Under the pieces are notes generated by a model, which saw only the letters and a list, made by a program, of their open reading frames with translations, was not told the origin of the DNA and made no database searches. A stretch of DNA of 64,000 nucleotides. It comes from Manihot esculenta (lineage: Eukaryota > Streptophyta > Magnoliopsida > Malpighiales > Euphorbiaceae). The position numbers and the translations under genes are program-made. Location of the stretch: NCBI RefSeq assembly GCF_001659605.2, contig NC_035164.2, positions 24,896,665 to 24,960,664 of the forward strand, read 5' to 3'. Positions 25,769 to 60,845 of the stretch are shown in pieces. Numbering within the stretch: position 1 is the first letter of the stretch; each line of letters starts with the position of its first letter.

Positions 25769-26137
25769 ATGGAATACCTAGATATCGCTCTTTTTCACCT
25801 CCGGCCCCCTTACCGGAATGAGAGGATCGTTCTTCCCAATCCTCATCCCTCTAGTCTAATCGACCCTCAGAAAGACGTGAGCTTAGTTTTCTTTGTTAAA
25901 CAGAAGGAATATGGCTTATCCTTTCCCTTCTCTCCCTTCTTTAACGAGGTTTTCCGGTATTTCGATATTACTCCCCGAACACTGACTCCTAATGCCATTC
26001 TCTTTATGTCTTCTTTCGAATCTGTTTATCTGAGCCGAGATTTCGCGCCCATAGTGCGTCTGTTCATTTCCTTCTTCAGGCTGGTCAAGGCGAGCAAAAA
26101 ATTTTATTATTTTGCCCCTCGTGGAGGCCTGTTCTAA
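25769..26137 (+). CDS. Antisense ORF of the Tat element, first part (putative plant transposon protein family)
   Basis: A 122-codon frame on the strand opposite to the retrotransposon, just inside its 3' LTR. Segments 'SFPFSPFFNEVFRYFDI', 'PRTLTPNAILFMSSFESVYL' and 'SKKFYYFAPRGGLF' follow the same order as in the remnant at 699-1106, which points to a real protein family. The biochemical role is unknown. The stop at 26135-26137 lies just before what looks like an intron: a possible GTTCTAATC donor at about 26131 and a TTTTTTTGCAG acceptor at about 26201. The downstream frame (26158-26583) would then supply the second exon. The region 25514-25768 reads like a promoter and pyrimidine-rich leader for this antisense gene. 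Whether it is transcribed cannot be told from sequence. Confidence 0.55.
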   Translation: MEYLDIALFHLRPPYRNERIVLPNPHPSSLIDPQKDVSLVFFVKQKEYGLSFPFSPFFNEVFRYFDITPRTLTPNAILFMSSFESVYLSRDFAPIVRLFISFFRLVKASKKFYYFAPRGGLF

Positions 26138-26157: not shown

Positions 26158-26583
26158 TTGAGAATTGCTCTGACTTCCCCTGATTTTGGATTTTTTGCAG
26201 CTTCTAAAGTGAAGATGGATCAGATTAAGCCCCTTAAGAATTTCACGCCGTCCAGGGAGAACATGAACACTGCCTTGGACGCCTTCCTAGCGGGGCGATC
26301 GGTGGAGGAGGATACTCAACAAGTAGCCGAAGTCATATCGTCCAGGTCGTCTGGCCGGCCTCCTCCCCCGGCTCCTGCCCAAGCTCCGAAGCCGAGCTCT
26401 CGAGGTGCCAAATCTTTAAGGCCGCCAAGCTACTGCAGGTCGGGCTCGACCACTCAAGCTGTTCAAGCCCCCAGGTCCCCACGAACTTCAAGGCCTAGCA
26501 AGGACTCCGGGTTGACGGGGTCGAAGCATGCCCCAACCTCTGGCGATGCTTCTGGAGAGAGGCTTGAGGCCTCCATAATGTAA
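26158..26583 (+). pseudogene. Antisense ORF of the Tat element, second part, cut by the Tekay insertion
   Basis: Continues the antisense gene after the presumed acceptor near 26201. It encodes 'SKVKMDQIKPLKNFTPSRE' and 'ALDAFLAGRSVEE', then a low-complexity Pro/Ser/Arg/Ala-rich stretch, typical of a disordered linker. The native sequence ends at 26578, where the Tekay LTR begins; the last few bases of the open frame belong to the LTR. The continuing antisense frame is on the other side of the insertion at 38384, but the reading phase across the two flanks does not match. Confidence 0.5.
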
Positions 26584-27419
26584 CACCCGGCTAGACTCCG
26601 GTATCGGAATTCCTACCGTCCGGTGGAATTTGGATGTCGGAAATCTCTAGAAGGGTAAAAGCATGTTTTTATAAAATGTTTTCATGTTTTTAATGTTTTA
26701 AGTATGAAATTTAATGAGTTTTTACATGAAAAACCTTTGGAGGAAAACCCAGGTTCGGCCGCCGAAAGTTAAGTTCGGCCGCCGAACATTGCATGGATGC
26801 GGAGGCACATTCGGCCCCCGAACATGGCCTGGCCAGCCACTATAAAAGGGTCCCTTAGCCGAAAACGGGCGAGCTTTTTCTCCCCATTTCGGCCAAGGTG
26901 AGCTCTCCGCCATCTTTGCTCAATCTTGAGATTTTCCTTCCTTTTTCCATGATTTTTACAAGTTTATAACATTTGTTTTGAAGATTTACAAGTTTTAAGC
27001 ACGTTTTGGAACTTTGAGGTTCAAGGAGCTCAATCCTCCCATCTTCGAGTCAAGGTCGTTTCCTCTCGTTTCTTCAAGAGGTAAGGGTCGATCTTGAACT
27101 CTTTTTATGTTTTAAACAAGCTTTGAGTAAGATCTATGGGGTAGAATGCATGTTTAGTTCATGGTTAGGTTTATGGGTATATGTTGTGATTTTGAACAAT
27201 GTAGCTTGATTGTGTGTGATTGAAGTGTTGTAGATGGGGTATATGCATGTTTGAGGCCCCTAGGAACTTGTATGCATGCTTTGGTTGAAAAATATGCATG
27301 TTTGGAAGGTTTGGAGGCGAAATGTGCAAAGGGAGCCAAGTTTCTGCCCTTTGGCAGAAACCAGGTTCGGCAGCCGAAGGTACTTTCGGCTGCCGAACAT
27401 GGCTGGGGAGGCAGGCCTT

Positions 27420-29673
27420 TGTAATACCCGGCTAGACTCCGGTATCGGAATTCCTACCGTCCGGTGGAATTTCGGATGTCGGGAACCTCTAGAAGGGTAA
27501 AAACATGTTTTATAAAATGTTTTCATGAATTTTAATGGTTTTAAGTATGAAATTAAATGAGTTTTTGCATGAAAAAGTCTTTGGAGGAAAACCCAGGTTC
27601 GGCCGCCGAAAGTCAAGTTCGGCCGCCGAACATGCATGCGTTTTGGAGGCACGTTAGGCCCCCGAAAGCATGAGTTTGGGAAGTCCAGTTTCGGCCGCCG
27701 AAAGTCAAGTTCGGCCGCCGAACATTTGCATGGATGCGGAGGCACATTCGGCCCCCGAACGTGGCCTGGCCAGCCACTATAAAAGGGTCCCTTAGCCGAA
27801 AATGGGCGAGCTTTTTCTCCCCATTTCGGCCAAGGTGAGCATTCCGCCATCCTTCCCCAATCTTGAGTTTTTCCTTCCTTTTTCCATGATCTTTACAAGT
27901 TTATAACTTTGGTTTTGAAGATCTTTGAGCTTAGAACGAGTTTTGGAGCTTGGAGACCAAAAGTTTGAAACTTCTCCCATCTCCAAGTTTAGATCTCCTC
28001 AACTCTCGATCTTCAAGAGGTAAGAGTCGATCTTAAGCTCCTCATGTGTTTTTAGTAAGTTTTATGCAAGATCTATGGGTAGAAATGCATGTTAGGGCAT
28101 ATGTTGAGTTATGAGTATATATTGATGTTTTGAGCAATGTGTGTTATTTGAGTATGTTTGAAGTGTTGTAGGTGGGGTATATGCATGTCTGAGGCCCCTA
28201 GGAACTTGTATGCATGACTTGGTTGGAGTATATGCTTGATTTGTGGTTTTGGGAGGCAGGAGGTTCAAGTGAACCAAGTTTCTGCCCGTTTGGCAGAAAC
28301 CAGGTTCGGCAGCCGAAGGGAGTTTCGGCCGCCGAACCCCTCTTGTGGAGGCAGCTTTCGGCTGCCGAAGGTGCCCCCGAAAAGAGACTTTCGTCTCTGT
28401 CTGGGACTTTCGGCCGCCGAAGGTGCCGCCGAACCTGCCTGAGTTTCGTCTCTGTCCAGGACTTTCGGCCGCCGAAGGTGCCGCCGAAAGTGTCCTGTTC
28501 AGCCACTTCATGCATATTTCTATGTGATATTTTCAGGATGTTTTAGGGGGTTTTTGGGGAATACTTTAGAGTTATGTTCAAGTATGTTTGGTCTCTCATT
28601 TGAGTCCACCTGTGTAGGTTCAGACCCGAGGAACCGAGGACCCCAGCAGTGAGTTCAGCTGCTTCGGTATTGTCAGAGTCAGCCAGAGGTGAGTGGAACT
28701 AAACTCAATCTTTTAAATTAAATGTTTTATCATGTTTCATGCATCATGATTATGCAATAGGATGATTGCATTAGTTATCACGAATATGCCGCATTGCATA
28801 AATTGTTGTTGTTGAGGGTGAATGTCGGATGACCCAATTAGTCCAAGACAGGAAGACCAGGCCCCATGCTACAGGCCTGGCACAGAGTAAGAAAGACCAG
28901 GCCCCAGTCTACAGGCCTGGCACAGAGTAAGGATCCCATCCTATGGTCTAGCACGATTGTGGGACTTGAAGACCAGGAGCCAGAGGAGGCCCTGGAAAAA
29001 TGGTAAGTAATGTATGTTCTGACAGGAAAGACCAGGACCCCATTCTACAGGCCTGGCACAGAGTTAACTTGGACTAATTGGTGACGAGTTCACCCAACCC
29101 TTATGTGAATTGTTTGTGTTATGATGCATTTCATAGAGCATAGTGTTAATGTGTTTTACTAGCTCTACTCACTGGGCTTTTAGCTCACCCCTCTCCCTTT
29201 ACCCCAGGCTTGCAGGTACAATATAGAGCGGGAGTCCGGATAGAGTAAAGAAGTCATGTTATGTAATAGCTAGTAATGGACATGATCAAATTGTAATGTA
29301 AAAGTACAGTATAGTTATGTAATGAGTTTTATGGATGTTAGTGTGTGCTTGACCATAGAATGTTGTATCCCTTTTTATACATGATCGTAGAGCTTTTGAT
29401 GATGTTTATGTAAACCAGCTCAACACAGGTTATGTTACCCTTTGAGGGCACAGATGAGATCCCACAGAGGGATCAAAGTTATGTTCATATTTATGCAGGT
29501 TGAGTTTGGTTGATGTTTATGAAAAGAAAAGTTTTAATTTTTATGCATGTTGTTGATCATGTATGGGATTATACAGGTTCACAGGTTTTATGTCAGGCTT
29601 GCTACGGGTCCCGGCGGCCTTAAGTCGACCCGGATCCTAGCGCCGGTAGCGGTCCGATTTTCGGGTCGTTACA
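27420..29673 (+). mobile_element. Solo LTR of a second Tekay-type family, nested in the 5' LTR
   Basis: A 2254-bp LTR beginning TGTAATACCC and ending GTCGTTACA, flanked by a perfect 5-bp duplication GCCTT (27415-27419 and 29674-29678). It shares the overall plan and many blocks with its host LTR (the opening region, the TATAAAAG box at 27778-27784, the GGCTTGCAGGT block) but has different tandem repeats and a different 3' end (CGATTTTCGGGTCGTTACA). No internal domain is present, so the element was lost by recombination between its two LTRs. Frames on either strand (for example 27260-27850 and 28092-28511, minus) are by-products of the repeated GGCCGCCGAA motif. Confidence 0.93.
28851..29062. 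repeat. Minisatellite in the nested solo LTR
   Basis: Four related units carrying AAGACCAGGCCCCA, CTACAGGCCTGGCACAGAGT and variants. It lies in the same LTR position as unrelated tandem units in the other Tekay-type LTRs of this window. Confidence 0.8.
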
Positions 29674-30171
29674 GCCTTTCGGCTGCCGAAGTTGCCCCTG
29701 AACAGAGACTTTCGTCTCTGTCTGGCACTTTCGGCCGCCGAAGGTGCCGCCGAACCTACCAGAGTTTCGTCTCTGTCTGGAACTTTCGGCCGCCGAAGGT
29801 GCCGCCGAAAGTGCCCTGTTCAGCCATTTCATGCATATTTTCATGTGATGTTTTCATGATATTTTAGGGGGGTTTTGGGGGATATATTAGAGTTATGTTT
29901 ATGTATGTTTGGTCCCTCATTGGAGTCCACCTGTGTAGGTTCGGACCCGAGGAACCAAGGACCCCAGCAGTGAGCCAGCTGCTACAGAGTTTGTCAGAGT
30001 CAGCCAGAGGTGAGTGGAACTAAACTTAATCTTTTAAATTAAGAAATTAAATGTTTTTATCATGCTTCATGCATCATGATTATACTATAGGATGTTTGCA
30101 TTAGAATTCACGAATATGCCGCATTGCATTGTTGTGATAGATGATAGTGGATGGACATTAGGATGATTCAT

Positions 30172-30305
30172 TAGCCTCTGAATACGAATTCCTGTGGTGC
30201 CCATAATAGGGCCGGGCAATAGCTCCGAGATACGAAGTCCTGTGGTGCCCATAATAGGGCCGGGCAATACGAAGTCCTGTGGTGCCCATAATAGGGCCGG
30301 GCATG
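30172..30305. repeat. Minisatellite in the 5' Tekay LTR (three units)
   Basis: Three copies of a unit with ATACGAAGTCCTGTGGTGCC and CATAATAGGGCCGGGCA. The same array is in the 3' LTR at 37635-37757. The core GTGCCCATAATAGGGCCGGGC is an imperfect palindrome. Confidence 0.9.
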
Positions 30306-30932
30306 GAGCTGAGGATTTTTGAATCAGTCCATCCGTGGTGTGATCTGTTTGTGCAGTGACGCATTTCATAACAGCATGTTTTAAATATTTTTTTTTTTGT
30401 TCTACTCACTGGGCATCTAGCTCACCCCTCTCCCCTAACCCCCAGGCTTGCAGGTGCGGGATAGATAGAGAAGACAAGAAGAGAAAAAGTCATATGTATG
30501 TAATAGTTAGATTGTGGACATGACAATTGTATTATGATGAAATGTAAAAATATTCAGTATGTTATGTAATGAGGTTATTGAGGATAGAGTTGTGCTTGAC
30601 CACAGTATATTGTTAATCCCTTTTGTATGTACATGATCTTATGTTATGATGTTTATGTAAACTAACTCAACACAGGTTGTTTTGCCTTTGAGGCTTGATG
30701 AGATCCCACAGAGGGACTATGTTATGTATATGATCAGAGTATGCACAGGTTGAGTTAGTTGATGACAGTATGTATGAAGAAAAGTTTTATCTTTTTTTTG
30801 TGTATATGGTTGATCATGTATGGGATTAAACATGTTTACAGGTTATGTTAGGCTTGCTACGGGTCCCGGCGGCCTTATGCCGATCTGGATCCTAGCGCCG
30901 GTAGCGGTCCGGATTTCCGGGCTGTTACAGAG

Positions 30933-30950
30933 TGGTATCAGAGCCCTAGG
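30933..30950 (+). other. Primer-binding site, plus-strand Tekay
   Basis: TGGTATCAGAGCCCTAGG begins three bases after the LTR end at 30929. TGGTATCAGAGC is complementary to the 3' end of initiator methionine tRNA, the usual primer of Tekay elements. Confidence 0.95.
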
Positions 30951-31202
30951 TTCATATGGTCGGACCTAGCGTGTCGGGCTCATAGATGTTATAGAAGGTC
31001 AAGCACAATAGGAAAGGTCATGTCCACTAGGATAGGATGTAGAGTCCTGTCTTGATGATGATGTGATATGCCATGACTACATGCATGTGCATAAATGATA
31101 TGCTATGTTTGCTATATATGTGATGAGGGTTCATGTGTGCCCACATGAACCATGTGATGCTAATGCTTGTGGGTTATGTGCTGGTTTTTCAGAGAAAACA
31201 GG

Positions 31203-34200
31203 ATGAGAGGAACTCGTCGATCTGCACGATTGACAGGAGTCCCACCAGAGGATGAGGGCACGAGCGCCCGTCCTCCCACATTGCCTAGGGCAATGTCATG
31301 CAGAGTAAACAGAGAAAGAGTGTCAAGGGACCCTAGAAGGTCTTTTGATACTAGCAGAAGGGGGACAGATAGAGGAGGAAGTTCTTCAGATGTGAGGGAG
31401 GTTATGGAAGAAGATCAGAGAAGGGATGGGAATCTGGATGTTAGCATGTCAGAAGAAGGGACAGGGGAGTCACAAGGAGGCACTCAGGCCTCGGGGTATG
31501 GCTTTCCACCCTATTATCCACCCTATGCACAGAGTCCCGGGTATCCGATGGGAAGTACATCGGATTACTCCAGCTTTAACCCCTACCCTACTCACATGCC
31601 TTATCCACATTTCTATCCACCTTACCCACAGTACCCAGCCTATCCACCCTCATCCTTCCATCCTCACCCAGCAAACCCCACCTCGGGGAATGCTGCACCC
31701 CCACCTCCATCACCTACAGAACCAGTAGCCCCAGTTGCTCAACCTCCTAGACCTAGCTCAGCCAGTGGGAGTAAGGTGAAAATGACAGCTTACCTTAAGC
31801 TGGATGCTCCCAAGTACAAGTCAGGGGATGATCCCTTTGAATACCTGAGAGCAGTGAAGATGATCACTGACGAGCTAGGGGCAGATGACAGAAGAGCCAT
31901 TGAGATGGCAGGGTTCACCTTAAAGTGCAAGAAAGCACGGGAATGGTTCAAGTGTTATGTGGACCCAAGATTAGACAGTATGACATGGGAGGAATTTGCC
32001 AATGAGTTTGCTGGATGGGCCTTTCCAGATAGTTCCAGAGAGCTAAAGATGATCGAGTTTGAGCAACTGAGACAGACAGAAGACATGAGCATAGAGGAGT
32101 ACACAGATAAATTTCTGGAGCTATTACCCTTCTCAGGGCAAGCTCTAGATACAGATGCAAAGAAGGCCAGGAGATATGTCATGAAATTACAGTCCAGGTA
32201 CTCCTCATTGATTCAATCAGTTGAGAGGGAAAGTTTTCACACTGTGGTAGATATGGCGCGAAGAATGGAGGCCAGTGCTATAATTGAGGGGTCAGTGAAG
32301 CAGTCGGTGACCCAGTCTTCAGGGGTTAAGACCCCAGGCAGAGGAGGGCCAGGACCCTCTACTCAGAGTTCAGGTAGTAAGAGATGGAGTAACACCAAGA
32401 AGCCCAAGAAGAACAAGTTATGGAATAAGCTGAAATCCGGTCTGGGATTTGGCGGTGGCTCGAGCTCAGGCTCAGATGGTACAGAATGCCAGAGATGTGG
32501 AAGACCACACAAAGGAGGGTGTCGATTAGGGACCAATGCGTGTTTCAGATGTGGCCAGGAGGGACACATGGCTCGGGATTGTCCTAGAGCGCCTTTCATG
32601 GGCCAGCCCCAACAGACAGCTTCGGGTAGTGTGGCACAGCCAGCAGCTCCAGCCACAACACAGGGCAGTGGCAGAGGTAGAGGGAGAGGAGCAGCCTCAT
32701 CCTCTGGTTCCCGAGGTGAAGGTCCATCAGCTCCAGCCAGGATCTTCACCATGACTCAGCAGGAGGCGAACACATCCAACACCGTGGTGTCAGGTAATCT
32801 CATCATTGGGTGTTCTGATGTGTATGCATTAATGGACCCGGGTGCATCTCATTCCTTTATTGCTCCGAGGGCAGTTGAGAGACTAGGGTTGATGGTCTCT
32901 GGGTTAGAGTGTCCCCTATGGGTCAGTGGACCCAAATGTGACCCGTCAGTGGCAGAGTCAGTCTGCCGGTACAGTCCAGTTTTTGTTGAGGGAAGATGCC
33001 TCTCCGCCGACCTTGTGGTTCTAGACTTGACAGATTTTGATGTCATTCTAGGGATGGATTGGCTGTCTACCTATGGTGCTACCTTGGACTGCAGGGACAA
33101 GGTAGTCAGGTTCAGAGATCAGAACGGGTCAGAGGTTGTCTTCAGAGGAGACAAGAGGGGTACGCCTAGAGGTCTGATATCGGCCCTACAGGCTCGAAGG
33201 CTGCTTAGGAAGGGATGTCAGGGGTATGTAGCTCATGTGAGAGAGCTAGATAGACAAGTCAGGGAGCCAGCCTCAGTGCCAGTTGTCAGAGAATTTCTGG
33301 ATGTCTTTCCAGAAGAGCTTCCAGGACTACCACCTACTAGGGAGACAGAGTTCGAGATTGAACTAATGCCTGGAACTAGACCGATCTCTATCCCTCCCTA
33401 CAGGATGGCACCAGCGGAATTGAAAGAATTGAAAGAGCAGTTGCAAGATCTGGTAGATAAGGGCTTCATCCGGCCGAGTACCTCACCTTGGGGTGCTCCA
33501 GTACTATTTGTGAAAAAGAAGGATGGATCCCTCAGACTTTGTATCGACTACAGGCAGTTGAACAAAGTCACTACCAAGAACAAGTACCCATTGCCAAGGA
33601 TCGACGATCTATTCGACCAGCTAGCAGGAGCGGGTTGTTTCTCCAAGATAGATCTGAGATCAGGGTACCATCAGCTGAGGATAAGAGAAGAAGACATACC
33701 GAAGACAGCTTTCAGGACCAGATATGGGCACTATGAGTTCCTTGTGATGCCGTTCGGGTTAACTAACGCCCCTGCAGCATTCATGGATCTCATGAACAGA
33801 GTGTTTAGACCATACCTGGATCACTTCGTTATTGTCTTCATAGACGATATCTTAGTGTATTCCAGGAATGCAGAGGAGCATGCCCATCATCTGAGGATAG
33901 TTCTGCAGACCTTGAGGGAACATGGCTTGTATGCCAAGTTCTCCAAGTGTGAGTTCTGGTTAAGGAGCATATCATTCTTGGGGCATATAGTGTCAGAGAA
34001 TGGGATAGAGGTGGACCCCAAGAAGGTTGAAGCTGTGACTAACTGGCCAAGACCCACCTCCGTGACAGAGATCAGAAGTTTCTTGGGTTTGGCTGGTTAC
34101 TACAGGAGGTTCGTTCAGGACTTCTCCAAAATTGCAGCTCCTCTAACCAGATTAACCAGAAAGAATCAGAGGTTCGAGTGGACCGATCAGTGTGAGGAGA

Positions 34201-36179
34201 GCTTTGAGGAGCTCAAGAAGAGGTTAACTACAGCACCAGTGTTAGCTCTGCCAACCAGCAATGAGGACTTCGCAGTGTTCTGTGATGCATCCAGAGTAGG
34301 CTTGGGTTGTGTGCTAATGCAGAATGGAAGGGTGATAGCTTATGCTTCTAGACAGCTGAAGAGGCATGAGTTGAATTACCCCACACACGACCTGGAGATG
34401 GCAGCAGTTATCTTTGCACTCAAGATGTGGAGGCATTACCTCTATGGGGTAAAGTGTGAGATCTTCACCGATCATAAGAGCCTTCAGCACATCTTGAGCC
34501 AGAGAGAGCTGAATTTGAGACAGCGGAGATGGGTAGAGCTGCTCAGTGACTATGATTGCAAGATTCAGTACCATCCGGGTAAGGCTAATGTAGTTGCAGA
34601 TGCCTTAAGCCGGAAATCACTTGGCAGTCTCTCCCACATCACAGCAGAGAGAAGACCGGTGGTGAAGGAGTTTTATAAGCTCATTGATGAAGGTCTACAG
34701 ATGGAGTTGTCTGGTACAGGTGCTTTGATAGCCCAGATGAAAGTGACACCAGTGTTTCTGGAGCAGGTGGCTCAGAAACAGCATGAGGACCCAGAGCTAG
34801 TGAAGATTGCCAGGACTGTTCAGTCAGGCAAGGACAGTGAGTTCAGATTTGACAGCAAAGGGATCCTCCGTTATGGGAATAGACTATGTGTACCAGATGA
34901 CATCGGGCTAAAAGGAGACATTATGAGAGAGGCTCATAATGCAAGATACAGTGTTCACCCTGGAGCCACCAAGATGTATCAAGATCTGAAAAGAGTGTAT
35001 TGGTGGCCAGCTATGAAGAGGGAAGTGGCACAGTTCGTGTCAGCCTGCGAAGTGTGTCAGAGGGTGAAGCTGGAACATCAAAAGCCGGCTGGAATGCTTA
35101 ACCCGCTACCTATTCCGGAATGGAAATGGGAAAATATAGCAATGGACTTCGTAGTGGGATTACCGGCAACATCCAACAGATTAGACTCCATATGGGTGAT
35201 TGTGGACAGACTCACTAAATCTGCTCACTTCATTCCTGTTAGGAGCAACTACTCTGTGGATAAGTTAGCACAAGTGTATGTTGATGAGATCGTCAGGCTG
35301 CACGGGGTCCCAGTGTCTATAGTGTCTGATAGAGGGCCCCAGTTCACTTCCAGGTTTTGGCGGAGTCTGCAGAGTGCTATGGGTACCAGGTTAGACTTCA
35401 GTACTGCCTTCCATCCCCAGACTGATGGACAGTCAGAGAGGACCATCCAGACAATAGAAGATATGCTCAGAATGTGTGTGCTAGATTTTGGCGGTTCTTG
35501 GAGGCAACATCTACCCTTAGTGGAGTTCGCCTACAATAACAGCTATCATGCTAGCATAGGGATGGCTCCATATGAAGCTTTGTATGGGAGGAAGTGCAGG
35601 TCACCCATCTGTTGGGAAGAAGTAGGAGAGAAGGCCTTGGCAGGGCCTGAAATAGTAGAGATCACCAGCAGGGTGGTGCCCATTATCAGAGAGAGAATCA
35701 AGACTGCTTCCAGCAGACAAAAGAGTTATGCAGACATCCGCAGGAAACAGGTAGAGTTTCAGGAGGGGGATCTTGTTTTGCTCAAGGTGTCTCCAATAAA
35801 AGAGGTGGTTCGGTTTGGGAAGAAAGGTAAGCTAGCTCCACGGTACATTGGACCCTTTGAGGTCCTGCGAAAGGTTGGGAATGTGTCGTACAAGCTGGAC
35901 TTGCCTGCTTCTATGGAGAGAATCCATCCGGTTTTCCATGTTTCCATGTTGAGAAAGTTCGTGTCAGATCCGGGCAAGGTTCTTAGTGAGCCTGATGTAG
36001 AGATCCAAGAGGATCTCACTTATGTTGAGCAGCCAGTGCGGATCATAGACACCCAGATCAGGAAGTTGAGGAACAAGGAAATCCCGATGGTGAAAGTCCT
36101 TTGGAACCACCACAATATGGAAGAATGCACTTGGGAGACACGAGAGTCTATGCTCCAGCAATATCCCCATCTCTTTTAG
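31203..36179 (+). CDS. Gag-pol polyprotein of a Tekay chromovirus, intact frame
   Basis: One open frame of about 1658 codons from the ATG at 31203 (the frame is open from 31167, but the minus-strand copy also has its conserved start at '[12 protein letters not shown]'). Residues below count from 31167. A Pro/Tyr-rich N-terminus; gag core about 203-385; CCHC knuckle '[14 protein letters not shown]' about 458; aspartic protease with '[11 protein letters not shown]' about 553; reverse transcriptase about 742-920 with 'FIDD' at the catalytic site; RNase H about 1036-1150 ('[10 protein letters not shown]', 'TDHKSLQ'); integrase with an HHCC finger (about 1256-1300) and D, D, E residues near 1326, 1388 and 1422 (35 apart for the last two); then the C-terminal chromodomain about 1615-1665 ('[15 protein letters not shown]'). 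No stop or frameshift was seen. DPGAS instead of DSGAS/DTGAS at the protease site is also present in the second Tekay copy, so it is a family trait rather than damage. Confidence 0.96.
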
Positions 36180-36278
36180 AGGTTAGTGTATATGTGAATC
36201 TTGTGGTGCATATGTATGCTATATGATTGTTGTGATATGCATGTACTAGTTGAGGAACATTCGGGGACGAATGTTCTT

Positions 36279-36291
36279 AAGGGGGGGAGAA
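36279..36291 (+). other. Polypurine tract, plus-strand Tekay
   Basis: AAGGGGGGGAGAA directly abuts the TGTAACACC start of the 3' LTR, where plus-strand DNA synthesis is primed. Confidence 0.9.
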
Positions 36292-38383
36292 TGTAACACC
36301 CGGCTAGACTCCGGTATCGGAATTCCTACCGTCCGGTGGAATTTGGATGTCGGAAATCTCTAGAAGGGTAAAAGCATGTTTTTATAAAATGTTTTCATGT
36401 TTTTAATGTTTTAAGTATGAAATTTAATGAGTTTTTACATGAAAAACCTTTGGAGGAAAACCCAGGTTCGGCCGCCGAAAGTTAAGTTCGGCCGCCGAAC
36501 ATTGCATGGATGCGGAGGCACATTCGGCCCCCGAACGTGGCCTGGCCAGCCACTATAAAAGGGTCCCTTAGCCGAAAACGGGCGAGCTTTTTCTCCCCAT
36601 TTCGGCCAAGGTGAGCTCTCCGCCATCTTTGCTCAATCTTGAGATTTTCCTTCCTTTTTCCATGATTTTTACAAGTTTATAACATTTGTTTTGAAGATTT
36701 ACAAGTTTTAAGCACGTTTTGGAACTTTGAGGTTCAAGGAGCTCAATCCTCCCATCTACGAGTCAAGGTCGTTTCCTCTCGTTTCTTCAAGAGGTAAGGG
36801 TCGATCTTGAACTCTTTTTATGTTTTAAACAAGCTTTGAGTAAGATCTATGGGGTAGAATGCATGTTTAGTTCATGGTTAGGTTTATGGGTATATGTTGT
36901 GATTTTGAACAATGTAGCTTGATTGTGTGTGATTGAAGTGTTGTAGATGGGGTATATGCATGTTTGAGGCCCCTAGGAACTTGTATGCATGCTTTGGTTG
37001 AAAAATATGCATGTTTGGAAGGTTTGGAGGTGAAATGTGCAAAGGGAGCCAAGTTTCTGCCCTTTGGCAGAAACCAGGTTCGGCAGCCGAAGGTACTTTC
37101 GGCCGCCGAACATGGCTGGGGAGGCAGGCCTTTCGGCTGCCGAAGTTGCCCCCGAACAGAGACTTTCGTCTCTGTCTGGCACTTTCGGCCGCCGAAGGTG
37201 CCGCCGAACCTACCAGAGTTTCGTCTCTGTCTGGGACTTTCGGCCGCCGAAGGTGCCGCCGAAAGTGCCCTGTTCAGCCATTTCATGCATATTTTCATGT
37301 GATATTTTCATGATATTTTAGGGGGGTTTTGGGGGATATATTAGAGTTATGTTTATGTATGTTTGGTCCCTCATTGGAGTCCACCTGTGTAGGTTCGGAC
37401 CCGAGGAACCAAGGACCCCAGCAGTGAGCCAGCTGCTACAGAGTTTGTCAGAGTCAGCCAGAGGTGAGTGGAACTAAACTTAATCTTTTAAATTAAGAAA
37501 TTAAATGTTTTTATCATGCTTCATGCATCATGATTATACTATAGGATGTTTGCATTAGAATTCTCGAATATGCCGCATTGCATTGTTGTGATAGATGATA
37601 GTGGATGGACATTAGGATGATTCATTAGCCTCTGAATACGAAGTCCTGTGGTGCCCATAATAGGGCCGGGCAATAGCTCCGAGATACGAAGTCCTGTGGT
37701 GCCCATAATAGGGCCGGGCAATACGAAGTCCTGTGGTGCCCATAATAGGGCCGGGCATGGAGCTGAGGATTTTTGAATCAGTCCATCCGTGGTGTGATAT
37801 GTTTGTGCAGTGACGCATTTCATAACAACATGTTTTAAATTTTTTTTTTTTTTGTTCTACTCACTGGGCATCTAGCTCACCCCTCTCCCCTAACCCCCAG
37901 GCATGCAGGTGCGGGATAGATAGAGAAGACAAGAAGAGAAAAAGTCATATGTATGTAATAGTTAGATTGTGGACATGACAATTGTATTATGATGAAATGT
38001 AAAAATATTCAGTATGTTATGTAATGAGGTTATTGAGGATAGAGTTGTGCTTGACCACAGTATATTGTTAATCCCTTTTGTATGTACATGATCTTATGTT
38101 ATGATGTTTATGTAAACTAACTCAACACAGGTTGTTTTGCCTTTGAGGCTTGATGAGATCCCACAGAGGGACTATGTTATGTATATGATCAGAGTATGCA
38201 CAGGTTGAGTTAGTTGATGACAGTATGTATGAAGAAAAGTTTTATCTTTTTTTGTGTATATGGTTGATCATGTATGGGATTAAACATGTTTACAGGTTAT
38301 GTTAGGCTTGCTACGGGTCCCAGCGGCCTTATGCCGATCTGGATCCTAGCGCCGATAGCGGTCCGGATTTCCGGGCTGTTACA
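36292..38383 (+). repeat. 3' LTR of the plus-strand Tekay element
   Basis: 2092 bp, uninterrupted. TATA box at 36554-36560 within CACTATAAAAGGG. Palindromic TTCGGCCGCCGAA clusters lie at about 36468-36500 and 37078-37263, and a three-unit minisatellite at 37635-37757. It ends CTGTTACA at 38383. Confidence 0.93.
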
Positions 38384-38386
38384 GGG

Positions 38387-39091
38387 GTGATGGTCCCTGT
38401 AAGCAGGACTGAGATCGCCTTTGTGGAGAATGTTCAGAGAGCCCTTGCCGAGGTTGGCCCAGTTACTGAGGAGAGGGAACTCAGTTCTGCAGATGGTGGG
38501 GGTGTAGCGGAGAAGGTCGGGGACAAGCGTCCTACCTCCACCGAAGTGCCTGCCCCGGTTCTCATTTCAGAGAAGTTCCGGGTTTCTAGAAGACCGGCTC
38601 TTATTCTCCTTCCTCTCGAGAAGAAGAAGGATGTTCCCGTGGTGCCCCTGATGTCTGCTCCTGACTCAAACTCATGGAATAACACGATTTCTGAAGTTTA
38701 TTGTGGAATACAAGACGCAGTTTACACATGTAACATAAAGCAGTTCATGGTGGATTCGTATCAGGATTTCCTTGTTGGAAATGGTGAAGATGATCAACTT
38801 GCCATCGATTTAGATATAGGGCACTTGTGCTATGAGAAACAAAGATCTGCTGCACTCAGTCAAGCTTCTATTGATGCTTTCAAGCGTGTGTTCCGTGATA
38901 TTCAAAGTTTAGCTTACAAGTATGCAAGTAAGGACAATGCATTGATGGCTATGTTTAAATCAGGAAGCAAGGGTAATCTGCTAAAATTAGTCCAGCATAG
39001 TATGTGTATAGGTGATAGTGATGTAAATAATGCCCCTAGGCATGTAAGTCCTTTGAGGACTGTTTTCCCTCCAGCCCGTGTAGATAATTAG
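38387..39091 (+). CDS. Antisense ORF of the Tat element with an RNA polymerase largest-subunit (Pol IV/V-like) segment
   Basis: An open frame of 234 codons on the strand opposite to the Tat element. Residues 1-95 are acidic, Pro/Val-rich and like the linker of the antisense ORF at 26158-26578. From about residue 97 the character changes: 'SWNNTISEVYCGIQDAVYT', 'QLAIDLDIGHLCYEKQRSAA', 'VFRDIQSLAYKYASKDNAL' and 'SGSKGNLLKLVQHSMCIG'. The last is the funnel/bridge-side motif of multisubunit RNA polymerase largest subunits (SGSKGS.INISQ in Pol II); the LLKLVQHSMC form recalls plant Pol IV/V subunits. After about residue 208 the frame returns to element-like sequence ('HVSPLRTVFPPARVDN') and stops. 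A possible polyadenylation region follows (39100-39140). Only about 110 codons are present and the catalytic NADFDGD region is absent, so no polymerase activity is expected. The first codon listed is GTG; an ATG follows at once. Confidence 0.7.
   Translation: MMVPVSRTEIAFVENVQRALAEVGPVTEERELSSADGGGVAEKVGDKRPTSTEVPAPVLISEKFRVSRRPALILLPLEKKKDVPVVPLMSAPDSNSWNNTISEVYCGIQDAVYTCNIKQFMVDSYQDFLVGNGEDDQLAIDLDIGHLCYEKQRSAALSQASIDAFKRVFRDIQSLAYKYASKDNALMAMFKSGSKGNLLKLVQHSMCIGDSDVNNAPRHVSPLRTVFPPARVDN
38675..39010 (+). other. NRPD1-like: Apparent captured host-gene fragment (Pol IV/V largest subunit-like)
   Basis: About 336 bp in one uninterrupted frame, embedded in Tat sequence. The left junction is judged from the change from Pro/Val/Lys-rich sequence to globular sequence at 'NSWNN'; the right junction is after 'HSMCIG'. 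Both are approximate. No intron is visible, so the fragment either comes from one exon or passed through an RNA intermediate. I prefer NRPD1 to NRPE1 from the general wording, without an alignment. Confidence 0.6.
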
Positions 39092-39880: not shown

Positions 39881-40525
39881 ATGTGACGCCGGGAGATCTT
39901 GGGAATCCCAGCCGTTTTTGCTCCGGGAGATCTTCGAGATCCCGGCTATTTTTGCTCAGGGAGGTCTTTTGGATCCCCCCGGCCGTTTGGTACCAGGAGA
40001 TCTTGGGTATCCTGGACTTGTTGTGCCAGGAGATCTTGGAGATCCTGGTCTTCTATCTTCCTGAGGTCTCTATGTCTCAGTGAGGTCTTCTGACGCCAGG
40101 AGATCTTGGGGATCCTGGTCTTCTACCTCCCTGAGGTCTCTATGTCTCAGTGAGGTCTTCTACCTCCCTAAGGTCTCTATGTCTCAGTGAGGTCTTCTAC
40201 CTCCCTGAGGTCTCTATGTCTCAGTGAGGTCTTTTACCTCCCTGAGGTCTCTATGCCTCAGTGAGGTCTTCTATCTCCCTAAGGTCTCTATGTCTCAGTG
40301 AGGTCTTCTGATGCCAGGAGATCTTGGGGATTCTGGTCTTCTACCTCCCTGAGGTCTCTATGTCTCAGTGAGGTCTTCACCTCCCTGAGGTCTCTATGTC
40401 TCAGTGAGGTCTTCTGATGCCAGGAGATCTTGGGGATCTTGGTCTTCTACCTCCCTGAGGTCTCTATGTCTCAGTGAGGTCTTCTACCTCCCTAAGGTCT
40501 CTATGTCTCAGTGAGGTCTTATGAG
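39880..40525. repeat. Minisatellite in the 3' region of the Tat element
   Basis: Two interleaved unit types. One is about 37 bp (CTTCTACCTCCCTGAGGTCT then CTATGTCTCAGTGAGGT), repeated about eight times; the other carries CCAGGAGATCTTGGGGATCC and similar. Higher-order combinations of about 68 bp recur. The first units (39890-40040) are diverged, the later ones nearly identical. Tandem repeats between pol and the 3' LTR are a known feature of Tat/Ogre elements. Confidence 0.92.
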
Positions 40526-40660: not shown

Positions 40661-42843
40661 TGTAACGACCCGAAAATCGGACCGCTACCGGCGCTAGGAT
40701 CCGGGTCGACTTAAGGCCGCCGGGACCCGTAGCAAGCCAAACATACATCCTGGAAACCTGTTTAATCCCATACATGATCAAGAAAATACATAAAAATTTA
40801 AAACCTTTCTTTCAAACATCCAACTCAACCTGAACATATACTGTACATAGTCATAATCATAATTATGATCCCTCTGTGGGACCTCAACAATGCCTCAATG
40901 GGCAAATACATCATGAGATGAGTTGGCTTCCATAACATTATAAAAAATTTTGATCATGTAATAAAAGGGATACCTCAATACAAAATGTCAAGCACAATAT
41001 CTAATCCTCAATATCATTACACATAACATAACTATAATATACTGAAATCTCTTACATTACATCATAATACAACTGTCATGTCCACAAACTAACTATTACA
41101 TACACACTTCATATCTCTGGCTAACCTCCTGGTCTACCCTGTACCTGCACATCTGGGGTTAAGGGAGAGGGGTGAGCTACAAAGCCCAGTGAGCAGAATA
41201 GAGAAAACATGTATTAAAATTTCATGCCATTATGTAATGAAACACATCACAACAAATCACATCTCGGATGGTATTGTCACCAATAATCCTCTACATAGTC
41301 CAACTGTGCCGGGACGTAGAATGGGTACAACCGGTCTTTCCCTTAACATAACATATCATACAGTCCAACTGTGCCAGGGACGTAGAATGGGTACAACCTG
41401 GACTTCCTCTTACATCGTGCCAGGGACGTAGAATGGGTACAACCTGGACTTCCATACCATATCATGCCATAACATCATCATATCATATGAGGACTAAAGG
41501 ATCATCCAATGACCAATCCACATCAACATCATAAATGCAATGCAACATATTCGTGAATACTAATGCAAGCAACCTACTATATCTCATGGCATTCATGATG
41601 CATGCGTCATGCTCGAAATTCATATTTCATTTATTTTAAAACTTAAAGTTTATTCCACTCACCTCTGGCTAGCTCTGACAAACTCTGTAGCAGCTGGCTC
41701 ACTGCTGGGGTCCTCGGTTCCTCGGGTCCGAACCTACACAGGTGGACTCCAATGAGGGACCAAACATACGTAAACATAACTCTAACATACTCCCCAAATA
41801 CCCCCTAAAACATCATGAAAACATCACATAAAATCATGCAAGAAATGGCTGGACAGGGCACTTTCGGCGGCAGGTTCGGCGGCCGAAAGTCCCTCCAGAG
41901 CCGAAAGTCAGGCAGGTTCGGCGGCACCTTCGGCGGCCGAAACTCCCAGACAGATCCGAAAGTCTTCTTTCGGGGGCAAGCTTCGGCAGCCGAATGCTGC
42001 CTCCACAAGGGGGTTCGGCGGCCGAAACTCCCTTCGGCGGCCGAACCTGGTTTCTGCCAGAAGGGCAGAAACTTGGTTCACATGAACCCCTTGCCTCCCA
42101 AAACCTCAAATCATGCATAAACTTGTTCTAAAACATGCATAAACACCATATATCACACCTAGGGGTCTCAAACTATCAAATACCCCAACTACAACACTTC
42201 AAACACACACAAACAACATACATTGCTCAAATCATCATCAAAACCCATAAACTCAACTTAAAGCCTAACATGCATTTCTACCCCATAAAACAACTTAAAA
42301 CTTACTTAAAACATATAAGGAGCTTAAGATCGGCTCTTACCTCTTGAAGATCGAGAGGGAGACGACCTAAACTTGGAGATCCACGAAAATGAGCTCCTGA
42401 GTTCCCAAAGCTCCAAAACTTGTTTCAAAAGTTCAAAACCTTCAATGCAAGCTTAAAACTCAAGAAAATGGTGGGGATTTGAAGGAAGAACACTAGATTT
42501 GGGGAGAGGGAGGTCGGAAGCTAGCTGTGGCCGAAAATGGGAGAAAGCTCTCCCATTTCGGCTAAGTGCCCCTTTTATAGTGGCTGGCCAGACCACGTTC
42601 GGGGGCCGAACTTGCCTCCGCATGCATGCCATGTTCGGCGGCCGAACTTGACTTTCGGCGGCCGAACCTGGGTTTTCCTCCAAGGACTTTTCATGCAAAA
42701 ACTCATTTAAAAACATACTTAAAATTATTAAAAACATGAAAACATATCATAAAAACATACTTTTACCCTTCTAGAGGTTTCCGACATCCGGGATTCCACC
42801 GGACGGTAGGAATTCCGATACCGGAGTCTAGCCGGGTATTACA
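40661..42843 (-). mobile_element. Solo LTR of a Tekay-type element, inverse orientation, inside Tat
   Basis: 2183 bp, starting TGTAACGACC and ending GGGTATTACA on the plus strand, flanked by a perfect GAAGT duplication (40656-40660 and 42844-42848). Minus-strand reading starts TGTAATACCCGGCTAGACTC, as in the other Tekay LTRs. TATAAAAG (minus) is at 42572-42579. It has its own tandem units (41285-41455: GTGCCAGGGACGTAGAATGG and GTACAACCTGGACTTCC). No internal domain remains. Confidence 0.93.
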
Positions 42844-42848
42844 GAAGT

Positions 42849-43268
42849 ACCTCTTTAGGTGCTGGATATTCCAGGCGCGAGGCTCAGGCTTTCCCTGCAC
42901 GTTTTCAATCTGATGGACTCTCGGTCCGACCACTTTCGGGGTTTTTTCGGCTCGAGAAACATGGCCTTATAGCAGTAGGTCCCATCTTCTGTTATGAATG
43001 AGGTCTTCTCCTTATCTGACCTATCCATTGGGATTTGGTGATCACTATACATTGTGTCTAAGGACGACATGTACTCAAAGCCGGCCGTGGAGTCAACCAT
43101 TTTATTAATATCAGAGAGGGGGTAACAATCTTTGGGGTATGCTTGATTGAGGTCAATGAAGTCTATACACATCCTATATTTGCCATTGGCCTTTTTGACT
43201 AATACAAGATTTGCTAGCCACTGTGGGTACATAACCTCTCTAATAAATCCAACCTCTTCCGTTCCCAT
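42849..43268 (-). pseudogene. Tat pol scrap: reverse-transcriptase piece joined to the integrase end
   Basis: The minus-strand frame 43268-42855 starts inside reverse transcriptase: 'GFIREVMYPQWLANLVLVKK', 'MCIDFIDLNQAYPKDCYPL', 'DSTAGFEYMSSLDTM' and 'EKTSFITEDGTYCYKAM', the fingers/palm order of Tat-type RT. It stops matching RT just before the FADD-type catalytic box. From about 42920, another minus-strand frame reads 'ENVQGKPEPRAWNIQHLKRY', the last part of a Tat integrase. Thus two deletions removed protease plus the RT start, and the rest of RT, RNase H and most of integrase. The piece cannot make an active enzyme. Confidence 0.85.
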
Positions 43269-43274
43269 TCCCAG

Positions 43275-44948
43275 CTAAACAATCATGTTGATGGTCCCAC
43301 TGGACCCATCATTCACCGGTCCGGCTCCCGTTCTCCTCGGTGCTTGGGCTGCCGGGTTAGGCTGAGGCCTCTGTCCCTTCGGTTTCTTCATGAAATTCTT
43401 GAGGTGTCCTCTCTTTATCAGCCTCTCGATCTCAGCAATCAATTGGTAGCAGTTGTTGGTGTCATGACCATGTGTACGATGATACTGACAGTATTTGTCA
43501 GGACTTCGCTGATCTACTTCAGTTCTCATAGGTTTAGGCCATTGTAGGAACTCCTTGTCCTGGATGGCCATGAGCACTTCGGCTCTAGAGGCATTGAGTG
43601 GGGTCGGCTTCTCTGGAACCCACGGGGGGAGTGGATTCTGTTTTGAGACCCGAGGAGGGAGGGGTCTTTGGTTCCTTCGGTCCCAGGGCTGTCTGTAGGG
43701 CTCAGGCCTTCTGCCTTGTTTTTTCTCCTGCCTTTCCAGCCTCATTTCTTCCGGGGCTTTTCCCTTATCTGTCGTTCCTTTGGTGAACCTGCTCGTCACC
43801 AAGGCATCATCCTGCCTTATATACTTTTTCGCCCTCTTCATTAGCTCCGCTAGCGAGGTAGGAGGCTTCCTGCTCAACGAGCCGAAGAACTCGGGCGAGG
43901 TTGTCCCTTTCTGCATTGCCTCCACCGCTCTGCCCTCATCCAGCTCGGGAATCTGCAAGGCCTCCGTATTGAAACGGGCAACGTATTCCCTGAGCGATTC
44001 ATCCCTTCTCTGCCTAACTGTCTCCAGATAGCTCGTCTTTCTGTCTGTAGGCACCCCGGCAATGAATCGGCTGATGAAGCGAGTGGCCAAATCTCCAAAG
44101 CTTCTGATACTTCCGGTCTCAAGGCTGTTAAACCACGCCCGTGCTGGTCCTGAGAGCGTCGTAGGGAATACCTTGCACATCAAGGCATCCGATAGAGTTT
44201 GCAGCTCCATGAAGGTTTTATAGTTCAGGACGTGCTCTCTGGGATTTCCAGCTCCATCGTACGCCGCCATCGGTGGCATCATAAACTTTTTGGGGACAAT
44301 CTCCTACTGTACCCCTTTTGAAAAAGGCAAAGAGGTAGGCAGGAGAGTTTGGCTGGGGTCCTTCGCCCCCAGCTCGGCCAAGAGCTGTTCTCTCATCTTT
44401 TGCAGCTTTTGGTCTACAATCTCCTCCTTCTGTTTGGGTTTCTTCACCAGACAATACTCCTCCTCCCACGTTTCACTTCCTGTTCTTTTTATTGTTCCGG
44501 CAGAATAACTGTCGGCCTCATCATTCTCAATCATTTCCCTCACCCTCCGTCCATGAACCCGAGCTTCCGGTTCTTCCACTTCTCCGGCTCTTCTCCCCCC
44601 TTCTCCGGTTTCTCGGCTGACGGTTTGGGGATGGTTGAAGGTAGGTTGAGGTTCAGTGGTCCGGGGCTCTTCTACCACCGGCAACACATTTATTGGGGTA
44701 CTGAGGCCCCGCTGTTGCATCATCTGCCCCAGCCAGTGGGCGGTGTTTTGTAACTGAAGGGCGATGGTTTGGAGGTCCTGGTTGGACAAGGTAGCAGCGG
44801 ACACATTCCCTGCCAAGCTTGGCAAGGGGTTGAGAGGAATGGGTGGTTGATTGTTTGGAGTAGTAGGGCTGGAGAAAGAGAACTGCTGCCCCTCTTGGAC
44901 AGAGTTCAGGTCGTTGGGAGTGACGTTGTTTTCATTGTGGTTAGCCAT
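43275..44948 (-). pseudogene. Gag of the Tat element, interrupted by one in-frame stop
   Basis: The frame starts at an ATG at 44948 (the same frame stays open to 45026, next to the primer site). The N-terminal part is Asn/Pro/Gln-rich ('MANHNENNVTPN'), then has a basic/acidic stretch with 'QKLQKMREQLLAELG'. A TAG stop at 44304-44306 separates this from the capsid core in the same frame: 'MPPMAAYDGAGNPREHVLNY', 'ARAWFNSLETGSIRSFGDLA', 'RRDESLREYVARFN' and a C-terminal 'YCQYHRTHGHDTNNCYQL' with the unusual C/H pattern common in Tat gag. Nucleocapsid and capsid would act in particle assembly. With the single stop, only the N-terminal part or an internal-start product could be made. Gag ends ('GTINMIV') a few codons before the RT scrap, in the same frame. 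Confidence 0.85.
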
Positions 44949-45010
44949 CGTGGATCTCAGTGGGTATTGTAAGAGTGGAACTCCGGTGATAAAAAGATCT
45001 CTTTCGTTTT

Positions 45011-45025
45011 TCACAGACGGCGCCA
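45011..45025 (-). other. Primer-binding site of the Tat element
   Basis: Minus-strand TGGCGCCGTCTGTGA, two bases inside the 5' LTR boundary at 45028. TGGCGCCG is the usual start of Tat/Athila primer sites. Confidence 0.85.
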
Positions 45026-45027
45026 CT

Positions 45028-45524
45028 TGATGATCTGAGATTCAGAAAATAGGGTTTTACAATGGGTTCTGTAAAACTGGAAAAGCTTAGACCTAGAGGA
45101 CTGTATTTCTCCTTTTATCTGTTTCCTTTTGTCCGCTAGTGACGTGTAACAGAATGTATGTCATTGGGCCACCTGTCTCTGTCTCATTGATATGGACGTA
45201 CGAGGAAATCAGATCGCTGCCCCATGCGTAACGGCCTCTGGTTCTTCCCGGGCGCACATGCGGGTGGTCCCCTGTGACGGATGGGTAGGCCTCCCTCCTG
45301 ATCCTGAGCTGGGCCGAAAGGTAGAATTAAGACTGAACCCAGAGAGGATCTGTTCGTTGGGCCGACAATGCTGGGCCGGCTTGGTTGAAGAGACTAACTG
45401 GAGTCTGGTCTCAAGGCTGAGCGGATCGGACCTGGTGCATGTGTGAGGCTTGAGGGCCTCTAAATAATGGGCTGGTATCGTGGGCCTGGCCCCAGACCGA
45501 GGTGGAGAAATCCAGCGGTCATCA
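45028..45524 (-). repeat. 5' LTR of the Tat element
   Basis: 497 bp, paired with 25017-25513 and followed by the second CATGG target copy (45525-45529). Confidence 0.93.
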
Positions 45525-46157
45525 CATGGAATCACTCCAAAACAGCTTAACCTTCATTTCTACGAAGGACTTTTGCCATTAGAACGAAGAATGATTGATG
45601 CTGCTAGTGGAGGTGCCATTTCAGAAATGGAACCTGAAGAAGGCAAAACCTTAATCTCAAAAATGGCCGCCAATTCTAGACAATATGGCCAAGAAGAGGA
45701 CATTCCAAGGAATGCTAATGAAGTAAGTATTGCATGTTTAGATTCTAAAATTGCACAACTAACAGCTGCAATTCAACAATTGGCTGCAGGGAATAATGTA
45801 CGAACTTGTGGCATTTGCAAACAAGCCAACCATCCCACAGATATGTGTCCTATTCTTCAGGAAGGAGAGCAACAGGTAAACGCTATTGGAGGGTTCAATG
45901 GACAACAATTCAACGGACAACAAAGGAAGAATGACCCATTTTCAAGCACTTACAATCCAGGGTGGAGAGATCATCCAAACCTTAGCTATGGGAATAGACA
46001 GAACTTCCAGCCTAGAGCAAACTATCAAGCTACAAATTCAGGTATGTCTCTAGAAGATATTGTTCAATCCCTTGCTAATAGCACTCTTGCTTTTCAACAG
46101 GAAACGAAGTCAAGCATCCATAATTTGGAGAATCAAATAAGCCAACTTGCTACATGA
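45525..46157 (+). pseudogene. Athila-like gag, C-terminal part with zinc knuckle
   Basis: Gag coding resumes after the Tat insertion in the phase of the interrupted N-terminal part: 'ITPKQLNLHFYEGLLPLERR' and 'IDAASGGAISEMEP', the standard Athila sequence after the capsid core. A CCHC knuckle follows (CGICKQANHPTDMC) for nucleic-acid binding, then a Gln/Asn-rich tail ('GQQFNGQQRKNDPF') and 'NLENQISQLAT'. A frameshift just before 46157 moves the continuation into the overlapping frame that begins at 46154. Confidence 0.85.
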
Positions 46158-46561
46158 GCAAGCTAGAATCTCAAGGGAAACTGCCCTCCCAAACTATACC
46201 AAATCCAAAACAGAACGTAAGTGCAATTATGCTGCAAAGTGGGAAGGAGTTAGAATCTGCCAGCCCGAAGAAGCTTGCCCAAGGCAGTAAGGCAGACCAG
46301 AAGACAGAAGCAGAAATAGAGATTTTAGAAGAGAAACAACCCCAGAAATCTGAGGAAGAACAATCCCCAATGCAGGTAATACGTCCACCTTTTCCCGAAA
46401 GATTTGCTCAATCAAAAAGAGAAAAGGAAGAGAAAGAGATCTTAGAGATTTTTCGCAAAGTCCAAGTATACATACCCCTTCTTGAAACCATAAAGCAAAT
46501 ACCCAGGTATGCGAAATTTTTAAAAGACCTTTGCACTAATAAAAGAAAATTGTATGGATAA
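46154..46561 (+). pseudogene. Athila-like gag-protease linker
   Basis: Frame with 'SKLESQGKLPSQTIPNPKQN', 'AIMLQSGKEL', a Lys/Glu-rich middle, then 'RPPFPERFAQSKREKEE' and 'IPLLETIKQIPRYAKFLKDL', the order seen in Athila elements between the knuckle and the protease. It ends at a stop (46559-46561). The same frame continues to the protease after 25 codons that still match element sequence. Confidence 0.8.
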
Positions 46562-46636
46562 GAAAAGATTAAAGTAGGGGAGAATGTCTCAGCTGTACTC
46601 CAAGGAAAAATTGCACAAAAATGTAAAGACAAAGGC

Positions 46637-47239
46637 ATGTTTGCGATATCATGTAAAGTTGGAAATCTTGAAATCAAGAAAGCAATGTGTGATTTAGGAG
46701 CTTCCATAAATGTTATGCCTCTGTCAGTTTATTTGTCTTTGGATGCAGGTCCGTTGAAACAAACAGGAGTTACACTCCAACTCGCCGATAAATCAATAGT
46801 TTATCCTAAGAGCGTGTTGGAAGATATTTTGGTCCAAGTAGGAAGATTAATTTTTCCAACTGACTTTTTTGTCTTGGATATGGAAGATAACAATTCATCA
46901 AACTCTATATATTTATTGCTAGGAAGACCATTCCTCAGCACAGCTAGAACGAAGATTGACGTGCATGAAGGCACGCTTTCAATGGAGTTTGATGGAGAAG
47001 AGGTAAAGTTTAATGTCTATGATGCAATGAAGTATTCTAATGATAATTTTTCTCTTTGCAGCATAGATATAGTTGACCCTCTCGCTCAAGAAGCCTTTGA
47101 ACTAAGCAAGGAAAACAAGTTGGGGGTAATTCCAACTGAGAACTTGATATTGGACTGCCTTGACAATAGTACATCTAAACTCAATGTAGAAATTGAAAAA
47201 TATTCCGCTCATTGGGCGCTTCAAGCCATAAGGCATTGA
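46637..47239 (+). pseudogene. Athila-like aspartic protease piece
   Basis: Contains the retroviral-type protease core: 'KKAMCDLGASINVMPLSVY' (DLGAS, with the catalytic Asp near residue 18), 'QLADKSIVYPKSVLEDILV', 'FPTDFFVLDM' and 'LLGRPFLSTARTKIDV'. The enzyme would cleave the gag-pol polyprotein. Directly after its stop, another frame (about 47230-47395) reads 'LQTLPVHLKYVFLGNKNTLP', the start of Athila reverse transcriptase, which ends abruptly near 47395. The rest of pol is missing. Confidence 0.85.
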
Positions 47240-55649: not shown

Positions 55650-55725
55650 TTCTCCCCTCCTTAAGAACATTCGTCCTCGGATGTTCCTCAAACAACAAAA
55701 ACAAAACACAAGGAGGAAATTAACC

Positions 55726-60624: not shown

Positions 60625-60830
60625 CTTTACTCTGGAAACATAACAGAGAACATACCACTTTAGCATATAACCATCACATAGCAATCATACACATACAACA
60701 CTCATGGCATATCATAACAGATAGGACTCAAGACCCTATCCTAGTGGACATGATTTCCTATTGGGCTTGACCACTTCTACCCTGTCTGAGCCCAACACTG
60801 TCTCTATAGGTCCGACCATGTGAACCTAGG

Positions 60831-60842
60831 GCTCTGATACCA
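60831..60842 (-). other. Primer-binding site, minus-strand Tekay
   Basis: TGGTATCAGAGC on the minus strand, three bases inside the 5' LTR boundary at 60846, complementary to initiator methionine tRNA. Confidence 0.95.
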
Positions 60843-60845
60843 ATC

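Follow-up and report, generated by a model that had tools for sequence, protein, structure and literature searches.

As far as PMC11963269 describes them in its main text, retrotransposons of the Retand lineage are marked by an open reading frame (ORF) for TRP28 that runs antisense to gag between pol and the 3′ long terminal repeat (LTR), and by tandem repeats. The subject of this analysis, element X, lies in a 64,000-nucleotide window of the cassava (Manihot esculenta) genome, the window being the whole stretch that was analyzed (NC_035164.2, positions 24,896,665 to 24,960,664). Judged by its traits, X would be of the Retand/Tat type: it shares the antisense TRP28 ORF between pol and the 3′ LTR and the tandem repeats, and its LTR length of 497 bp falls in the Retand range reported in the same paper. 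Unlike the Retand/Tat elements of that account, X has a fragment of the host gene NRPD1, which encodes the largest subunit of RNA polymerase IV (Pol IV), as the middle of its antisense ORF. Table 1 of PMC11963269 lists no RNA polymerase domain, and its main text uses none of the terms “RNA polymerase,” “Manihot,” and “cassava.”

That plant transposons capture genes is itself known. Maize Bs1, Sirevirus, and other LTR elements carry and multiply host fragments (PMC7264820, PMC13317346, in the portions available), as the cassava family does. In the accessible part of PMC7264820, captured genes usually lie in the sense of gag-pol, and transduced ORFs are found in one or a few copies. The cassava fragment differs from the LTR captures of both papers in being antisense, high-copy, and derived from the largest Pol IV subunit. 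A second comparison is offered by the KIU Vandal elements, in which a captured Ulp1 domain resides in VANC, Ulp1 is strongly conserved in eudicots, and the carriers are anti-silencing (PMC13317346, main text). In both systems a domain taken from the host is fused to a plant transposon's accessory protein, but unlike KIU Ulp1 the cassava NRPD1 piece looks young and near-neutral. The main text of PMC13317346 also describes feedback on donor genes by small interfering RNAs (siRNAs) from captured sequences in maize, and contains neither “RNA polymerase” nor “Manihot.” A literature search over titles and the beginnings of abstracts, with most subscription papers outside its reach, returned no report of this NRPD1 capture. 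What is new here is a high-copy, antisense capture from the largest Pol IV subunit, seated in a TRP28 antisense ORF. The donor gene encodes the largest subunit of the enzyme that produces silencing siRNAs, and the fragment would be antisense in the element RNA, raising the question, testable in cassava, of whether a transposon's stolen fragment acts on the silencing machinery itself.

Evidence for the identity of the piece comes from domain, structure, protein, and DNA matches. A 234-codon ORF is present at 38387-39091 (+) and is antisense to the element, as first annotated, with gag and a reverse transcriptase (RT) fragment on the minus strand. Its residues 155-214 match PF05000 RNA_pol_Rpb1_4 (E 3.1e-8, above the curated cut-off), and in the PDB its residues 83-210 match the Pol IV subunit 1 chains 8xmb_A and 7eu0_A (114 bits, E 7e-32). 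Beyond these two chains, a PDB search extended to E values of 10 returned only a ribosomal protein and a cytochrome oxidase subunit, neither of them a polymerase. With a padded query, cassava NRPD1 (P0012) is the nearest full-length protein with a name, and Pol IV subunit 1 of Manihot and of Hevea head the named proteins. Over 127 amino acids, the window piece is 81.1% identical to NRPD1 of cassava, 80.3% to that of Hevea, 73.2% to that of Jatropha, and 68.5% to that of Ricinus. At the DNA level the homology covers window positions 38661-39012 (+), corresponding to host codons ∼638-755, with 91.8% identity to the host exon; this is slightly wider than the 38675-39010 interval in which a polymerase signature had first been noticed.

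The Pfam and PDB matches rule out chance similarity to a polymerase. An element protein family mistaken for a polymerase is likewise ruled out, as three native antisense ORFs fetched for comparison have an unrelated middle. By best match, as distinct from a side-by-side comparison with plant NRPE1 and NRPB1, the piece is identified as a fragment of NRPD1. The initial annotation had proposed a Pol IV origin, to be given up if the best matches were to a retrotransposon protein family; they are to RNA polymerase IV, with Pol IV chains alone significant in the PDB and NRPD1 the top named protein. The DFDGD motif has a catalytic role; it lies upstream of codon 629 in P0012, hence outside the captured piece. 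A full-length NRPD1 with catalytic aspartates is found neither in the window (codons ∼638-755) nor among the 67 copies examined (codons ∼638-869 at most).

These 67 copies are the window copy and 66 fetched from elsewhere in the genome, mostly top-ranked matches plus six shorter ones and so a nonrandom sample. The donor was found as well: codons 256-927 of P0012 form one block of locus L009 (C2), at 3556-5679, with an uninterrupted frame of 703 codons across the captured part. An intact donor exon elsewhere in the genome, together with a host fragment inside the element, is what defines transduplication, and both are present here. Breakpoints were mapped on a 729-nt host stretch starting at codon 629. 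The left edge falls at host nt 27-32 (codon ∼638) in 67/67 copies and the right edge at nt 719-722 in 33/67, with one more at nt 710. When the whole NRPD1 protein is the query, matches end by codon 873; the letters depart from the host at nt 722. Because the left breakpoint is common to all 67 copies and the right one to 33, the family descends from a single capture of one ∼694-bp NRPD1 exon piece (codons ∼638-869). Capture from a host gene, as initially supposed, thus gains both a donor exon in the cassava genome and a breakpoint common to the copies. The alignment to host NRPD1 that had been advised for junctions and introns supplied the junctions; introns were uninformative because the entire captured stretch lies within one host exon, and for the same reason they do not tell an RNA source from a DNA source.

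The state before capture can be read from relatives without NRPD1, which were located by the native tail at the C-terminal end of the antisense ORF. Each of the three that were fetched (L071-L073) has TRP28 (partial in L073), a linker, a coiled-coil-like middle, and the tail, and none of the three has a significant NRPD1 match. Among the best 150 of 3370 Transposase_28 candidates, none lies within 5 kb of a listed chimera copy. Together these results rule out an NRPD1 segment universal in Tat antisense ORFs, a prospect that the initial annotation had also raised. The NRPD1 piece took the place of the native middle, a stretch of ∼0.85 kb in L072. Element sequence flanks the piece on both sides, as had been noticed at the outset, with linker before it and the native C-terminal tail after it. 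Against L072, the closest native relative, the junctions show 5-6 nt of microhomology at which native element and host agree (CTGAC on the left, GACAGA on the right); this reading rests on L072, the native letters of L071 and L073 diverging more at the edges. The reading frame is kept across the left junction; across the right one it is lost in the long copies inspected.

The extent of the family was gauged by searching the 640-Mb cassava genome with the 234-codon ORF; the best 150 of 2080 candidates were scored, so that all counts are lower bounds. Other carriers, whose existence the initial annotation had left to such a search, are plentiful: 152 matches were found and 150 are listed, on 18 contigs, comprising the host NRPD1 exon (C2), two second pieces, and ∼147 places including the window. 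NRPD1 sequence is present in 66/66 fetched copies besides the window, and TRP28 in a short upstream stretch of 61/66. In the window group the piece stops at codon 755, and the native tail follows in the same frame. Subfamily L063-L068 (six fetched) has a 228-nt in-frame deletion that removes much of the PF05000-matching part and leaves frames of 229-313 codons open, and one subfamily has a 104-nt frameshifting deletion. An integrase domain is found in L070, 2.9 kb beyond copy L025, which belongs to a subfamily other than that of the window. The pol-deleted layout of the window copy, gag plus truncated RT, recurs in copy L005 and its neighbor L069 (95.7% over 2.7 kb), and the pol-deleted form has itself multiplied.

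Two cassava-annotated proteins, P0002 (LOC122722383) and P0003 (“podocalyxin-like”), match the antisense ORF over the linker and the Pol IV piece, which suggests that they are transposon antisense ORFs and not ordinary host genes. Four more chimeric proteins are P0001, P0004, P0007, and P0009. Separately, two pairs, each made up of oppositely oriented copies at the same spacing, lie ∼63 kb apart (C8:6547536-6552769 and C8:6610639-6615872), which suggests a segmental duplication, and L069 has a further, more distant RT match at 5177-5463 (+), past the LTR.

Taken jointly, a single capture after the split from Hevea, replacing the middle of the antisense ORF and multiplied by retrotransposition mainly as a passenger, is in our judgment the probable history of the family. 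In this history the ∼694 bp of one NRPD1 exon would have entered a Retand/Tat-type antisense ORF once. Because there is short microhomology at both edges and the replacement is clean, the capture may have occurred by template switching during reverse transcription or by microhomology-driven repair of a resident copy. Retrotransposition then carried the piece to the 67 copies verified and to at least ∼147 places listed, later deletions giving rise to subfamilies. The window copy is of a pol-deleted form in which the piece was trimmed to codon 755 and its frame reconnected with that of the native C terminus.

The subfamilies differ less in the NRPD1 block than in the antisense ORF upstream of it, which might seem to speak for more than one independent capture or for gene conversion from NRPD1 on several occasions. 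Among the three large subfamilies, transversion divergence falls from 0.065-0.112 in TRP28, through the linker, to 0.007-0.028 in the Pol IV block. The divergence of the linker adjoining the block is, however, already low at 0.013-0.024, which fits recombination among elements; with the same left breakpoint in 67/67 copies, repeated acquisition from the host is very improbable. The gradient fits recombination spreading a younger block among older element backgrounds. Selection was also tried as the cause of the low divergence of the Pol IV block and was rejected, given the low transversion divergence of the adjoining linker and the excess of transitions in the GC-rich linker.

The timing within the single-capture history was approached through seven protein sites derived in cassava relative to Hevea and outgroups. 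Most copies carry the derived cassava residue at four of these (647, 754, 776, and 787), the ancestral residue at two (744 and 846), and another residue at 867; at site 696, derived in Hevea, the copies do not carry the Hevea state. Because the copies share cassava-type residues, the capture would date from after the Hevea split, and apparently from before the latest changes in the cassava gene. One protein weighs against this date. P0009 has linker and NRPD1 pieces with the same left junction and is only ∼50% identical to the best fetched copies, so that it may represent an older branch, making an older or wider spread possible.

Whether the piece is maintained as protein was assessed in sets of 47, 62, 39, and 25 sequences, from which copies were excluded if they had stops in the region or <60% of the codons. 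In a maximum-likelihood codon model, omega is 0.83 for the Pol IV part (47 copies, kappa ∼15), 0.99 and 0.88 for the linkers, and 0.97 for TRP28. For the Pol IV part, omega is 0.75 on internal and 0.86 on terminal branches, neither differing from 1 (twice the log-likelihood difference, 2dL, 2.14 and 1.21). Simple dN/dS counts are misleading because transitions dominate: purifying selection had been considered from NG86 ratios of 0.31-0.49 between the three large subfamilies and was rejected, neutral simulation having medians of 0.56-0.71 and the fitted kappa being ∼15. These results point to weak or no constraint, and the piece would be largely a passenger whose protein function, if any, is not under strong selection.

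Other figures pull in the opposite direction. Five chosen representatives give an omega of 0.55 (2dL ∼6.8 versus omega 1), and random draws of four give a median omega of 0.67 for the Pol IV part, significantly below 1 in 8/24 draws; in random draws of the linker the median is 1.03, with 0/24 significantly below 1. Between subfamilies, constraint is somewhat stronger on the Pol IV part than on the neighboring linker, and the aligned Pol IV part is free of stops in 53/67 copies. On these grounds a weak protein-level function is possible.

A stronger proposal is that TRP28, the linker, and the NRPD1 funnel-region piece form a chimeric protein acting as a nuclear decoy or adaptor. The in-frame left junction is consistent with it, as are the match of the whole ORF (residues 1-234) in at least six other listed copies, the 378-codon open frame in four, and an omega of 0.50-0.83 in random representative sets. 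Such a protein is nonetheless improbable, given the out-of-frame right junction of the long copies looked at, the 104-nt frameshifting deletion in one subfamily, stops in the aligned Pol IV part of 14/67 copies, a tree-wide omega not different from 1, and a piece that lacks the DFDGD motif. The decoy protein envisaged in the initial annotation is disfavored in the same way by near-neutral codon evolution, the right junction, and repeated deletions.

For a largely passenger piece, the most plausible effect would be RNA cross-talk with the host NRPD1 gene, a suggestion drawn from sequence. Since gag and the piece lie on opposite strands, the genomic RNA would hold antisense NRPD1 and a transcript of the antisense ORF would hold sense NRPD1; because the element genomic RNA carries NRPD1 antisense, cross-talk is possible in principle. 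Within the captured host stretch, 361/674 21-mers and 309/671 24-mers have an exact match in one or more of the 67 copies. For the parts of this exon that lie outside the capture, exact matches number 0/1207 (21-mers) and 0/1204 (24-mers) upstream and 0/149 and 0/146 downstream.

A further proposal is counter-silencing, in which antisense NRPD1 or copy-derived siRNAs would lower NRPD1, weaken RNA-directed DNA methylation, and aid the spread of the element. The antisense orientation and the k-mers shared with the host inside the capture, none upstream in the exon, would suit this proposal, and captured sequences in maize are reported in the main text of PMC13317346 to be siRNA reservoirs acting on donor genes. 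Against it, the window copy and subfamily L063-L068 each lack about half of the captured stretch. Furthermore, 24-nt siRNAs need Pol IV, and the process would therefore limit itself. We consider counter-silencing unlikely, and slightly less likely still that copy RNAs dampen the host Pol IV gene as a counter-defense that helped the family spread in Manihot. An effect of the piece on the host, as first imagined, is not supported so far.

The window as a whole is a nest of LTR elements, in which X, on the minus strand, encloses the antisense ORF. The parts of X and the insertions within it are as follows.

25017-25513, minus strand: X LTR (3′ LTR in X orientation), TG...CA, with the 5-bp target-site duplication CATGG at 25012-25016.
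25769-26134, plus strand: Transposase_28 (TRP28) part of the antisense ORF, PF04195 (E 3.1e-12), on the strand opposite gag.
26215-26574, plus strand: linker part of the antisense ORF, located by tblastn and common to P0002, P0003, and P0007.
26579-38383, plus strand: chromovirus within the antisense ORF, LTR pairs 99-99.5%, with Pfam domains, Chromo just below cut-off.
38387-39091, plus strand: 3′ part of the antisense ORF, comprising linker (38387-38660), NRPD1 piece, and native C-terminal tail.
38661-39012, plus strand: captured NRPD1 piece, as described above.
39014-39088, plus strand: native C-terminal tail of the antisense ORF, also in relatives without NRPD1.
39987-40524, no strand: tandem-repeat array between pol and the 3′ LTR, repeat family D1.
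40661-42843, minus strand: insertion in X of a solo LTR from a related chromovirus, with the target-site duplication GAAGT.
42855-43268, minus strand: X reverse transcriptase, start only, PF00078 (E 3e-5, just below the curated cut-off, profile positions 1-107).
43275-45026, minus strand: X gag region, two ORFs (44304-45026 and 43275-44282), PF03732 (E 4.6e-16) in 43275-44282.
45028-45524, minus strand: X LTR (5′ LTR), target-site duplication CATGG at 45525-45529.

The two LTRs of X differ at 13/497 sites, and at a substitution rate of 1.3e-8 per site per year this divergence corresponds to about one million years. ORF 44304-45026 has no Pfam match. The remaining pol of X was not found in the window copy, which has gag and truncated RT only and not the complete gag and pol of an autonomous LTR retrotransposon.

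The antisense ORF is split by the 11.8-kb chromovirus, so that 38387-39091 is its 3′ part only, with TRP28 and further linker beyond the insertion. The chromovirus has gag-pol at 31167-36179, and its 5′ LTR contains a nested solo LTR at 27420-29673 with the duplication GCCTT; no matching target-site duplication was seen at its edges, 26579 and 38383. A few codons of P0002 and P0003 are apparently missing in the window at the point of insertion. A second related chromovirus occupies 53467-63017 (−), with LTRs 99% identical and gag-pol split into ORFs 57124-60684 and 55726-57108. An older gag/protease element, at 24369-24929 and 45525-47239 (+), was apparently split by the insertion of X (duplication CATGG).
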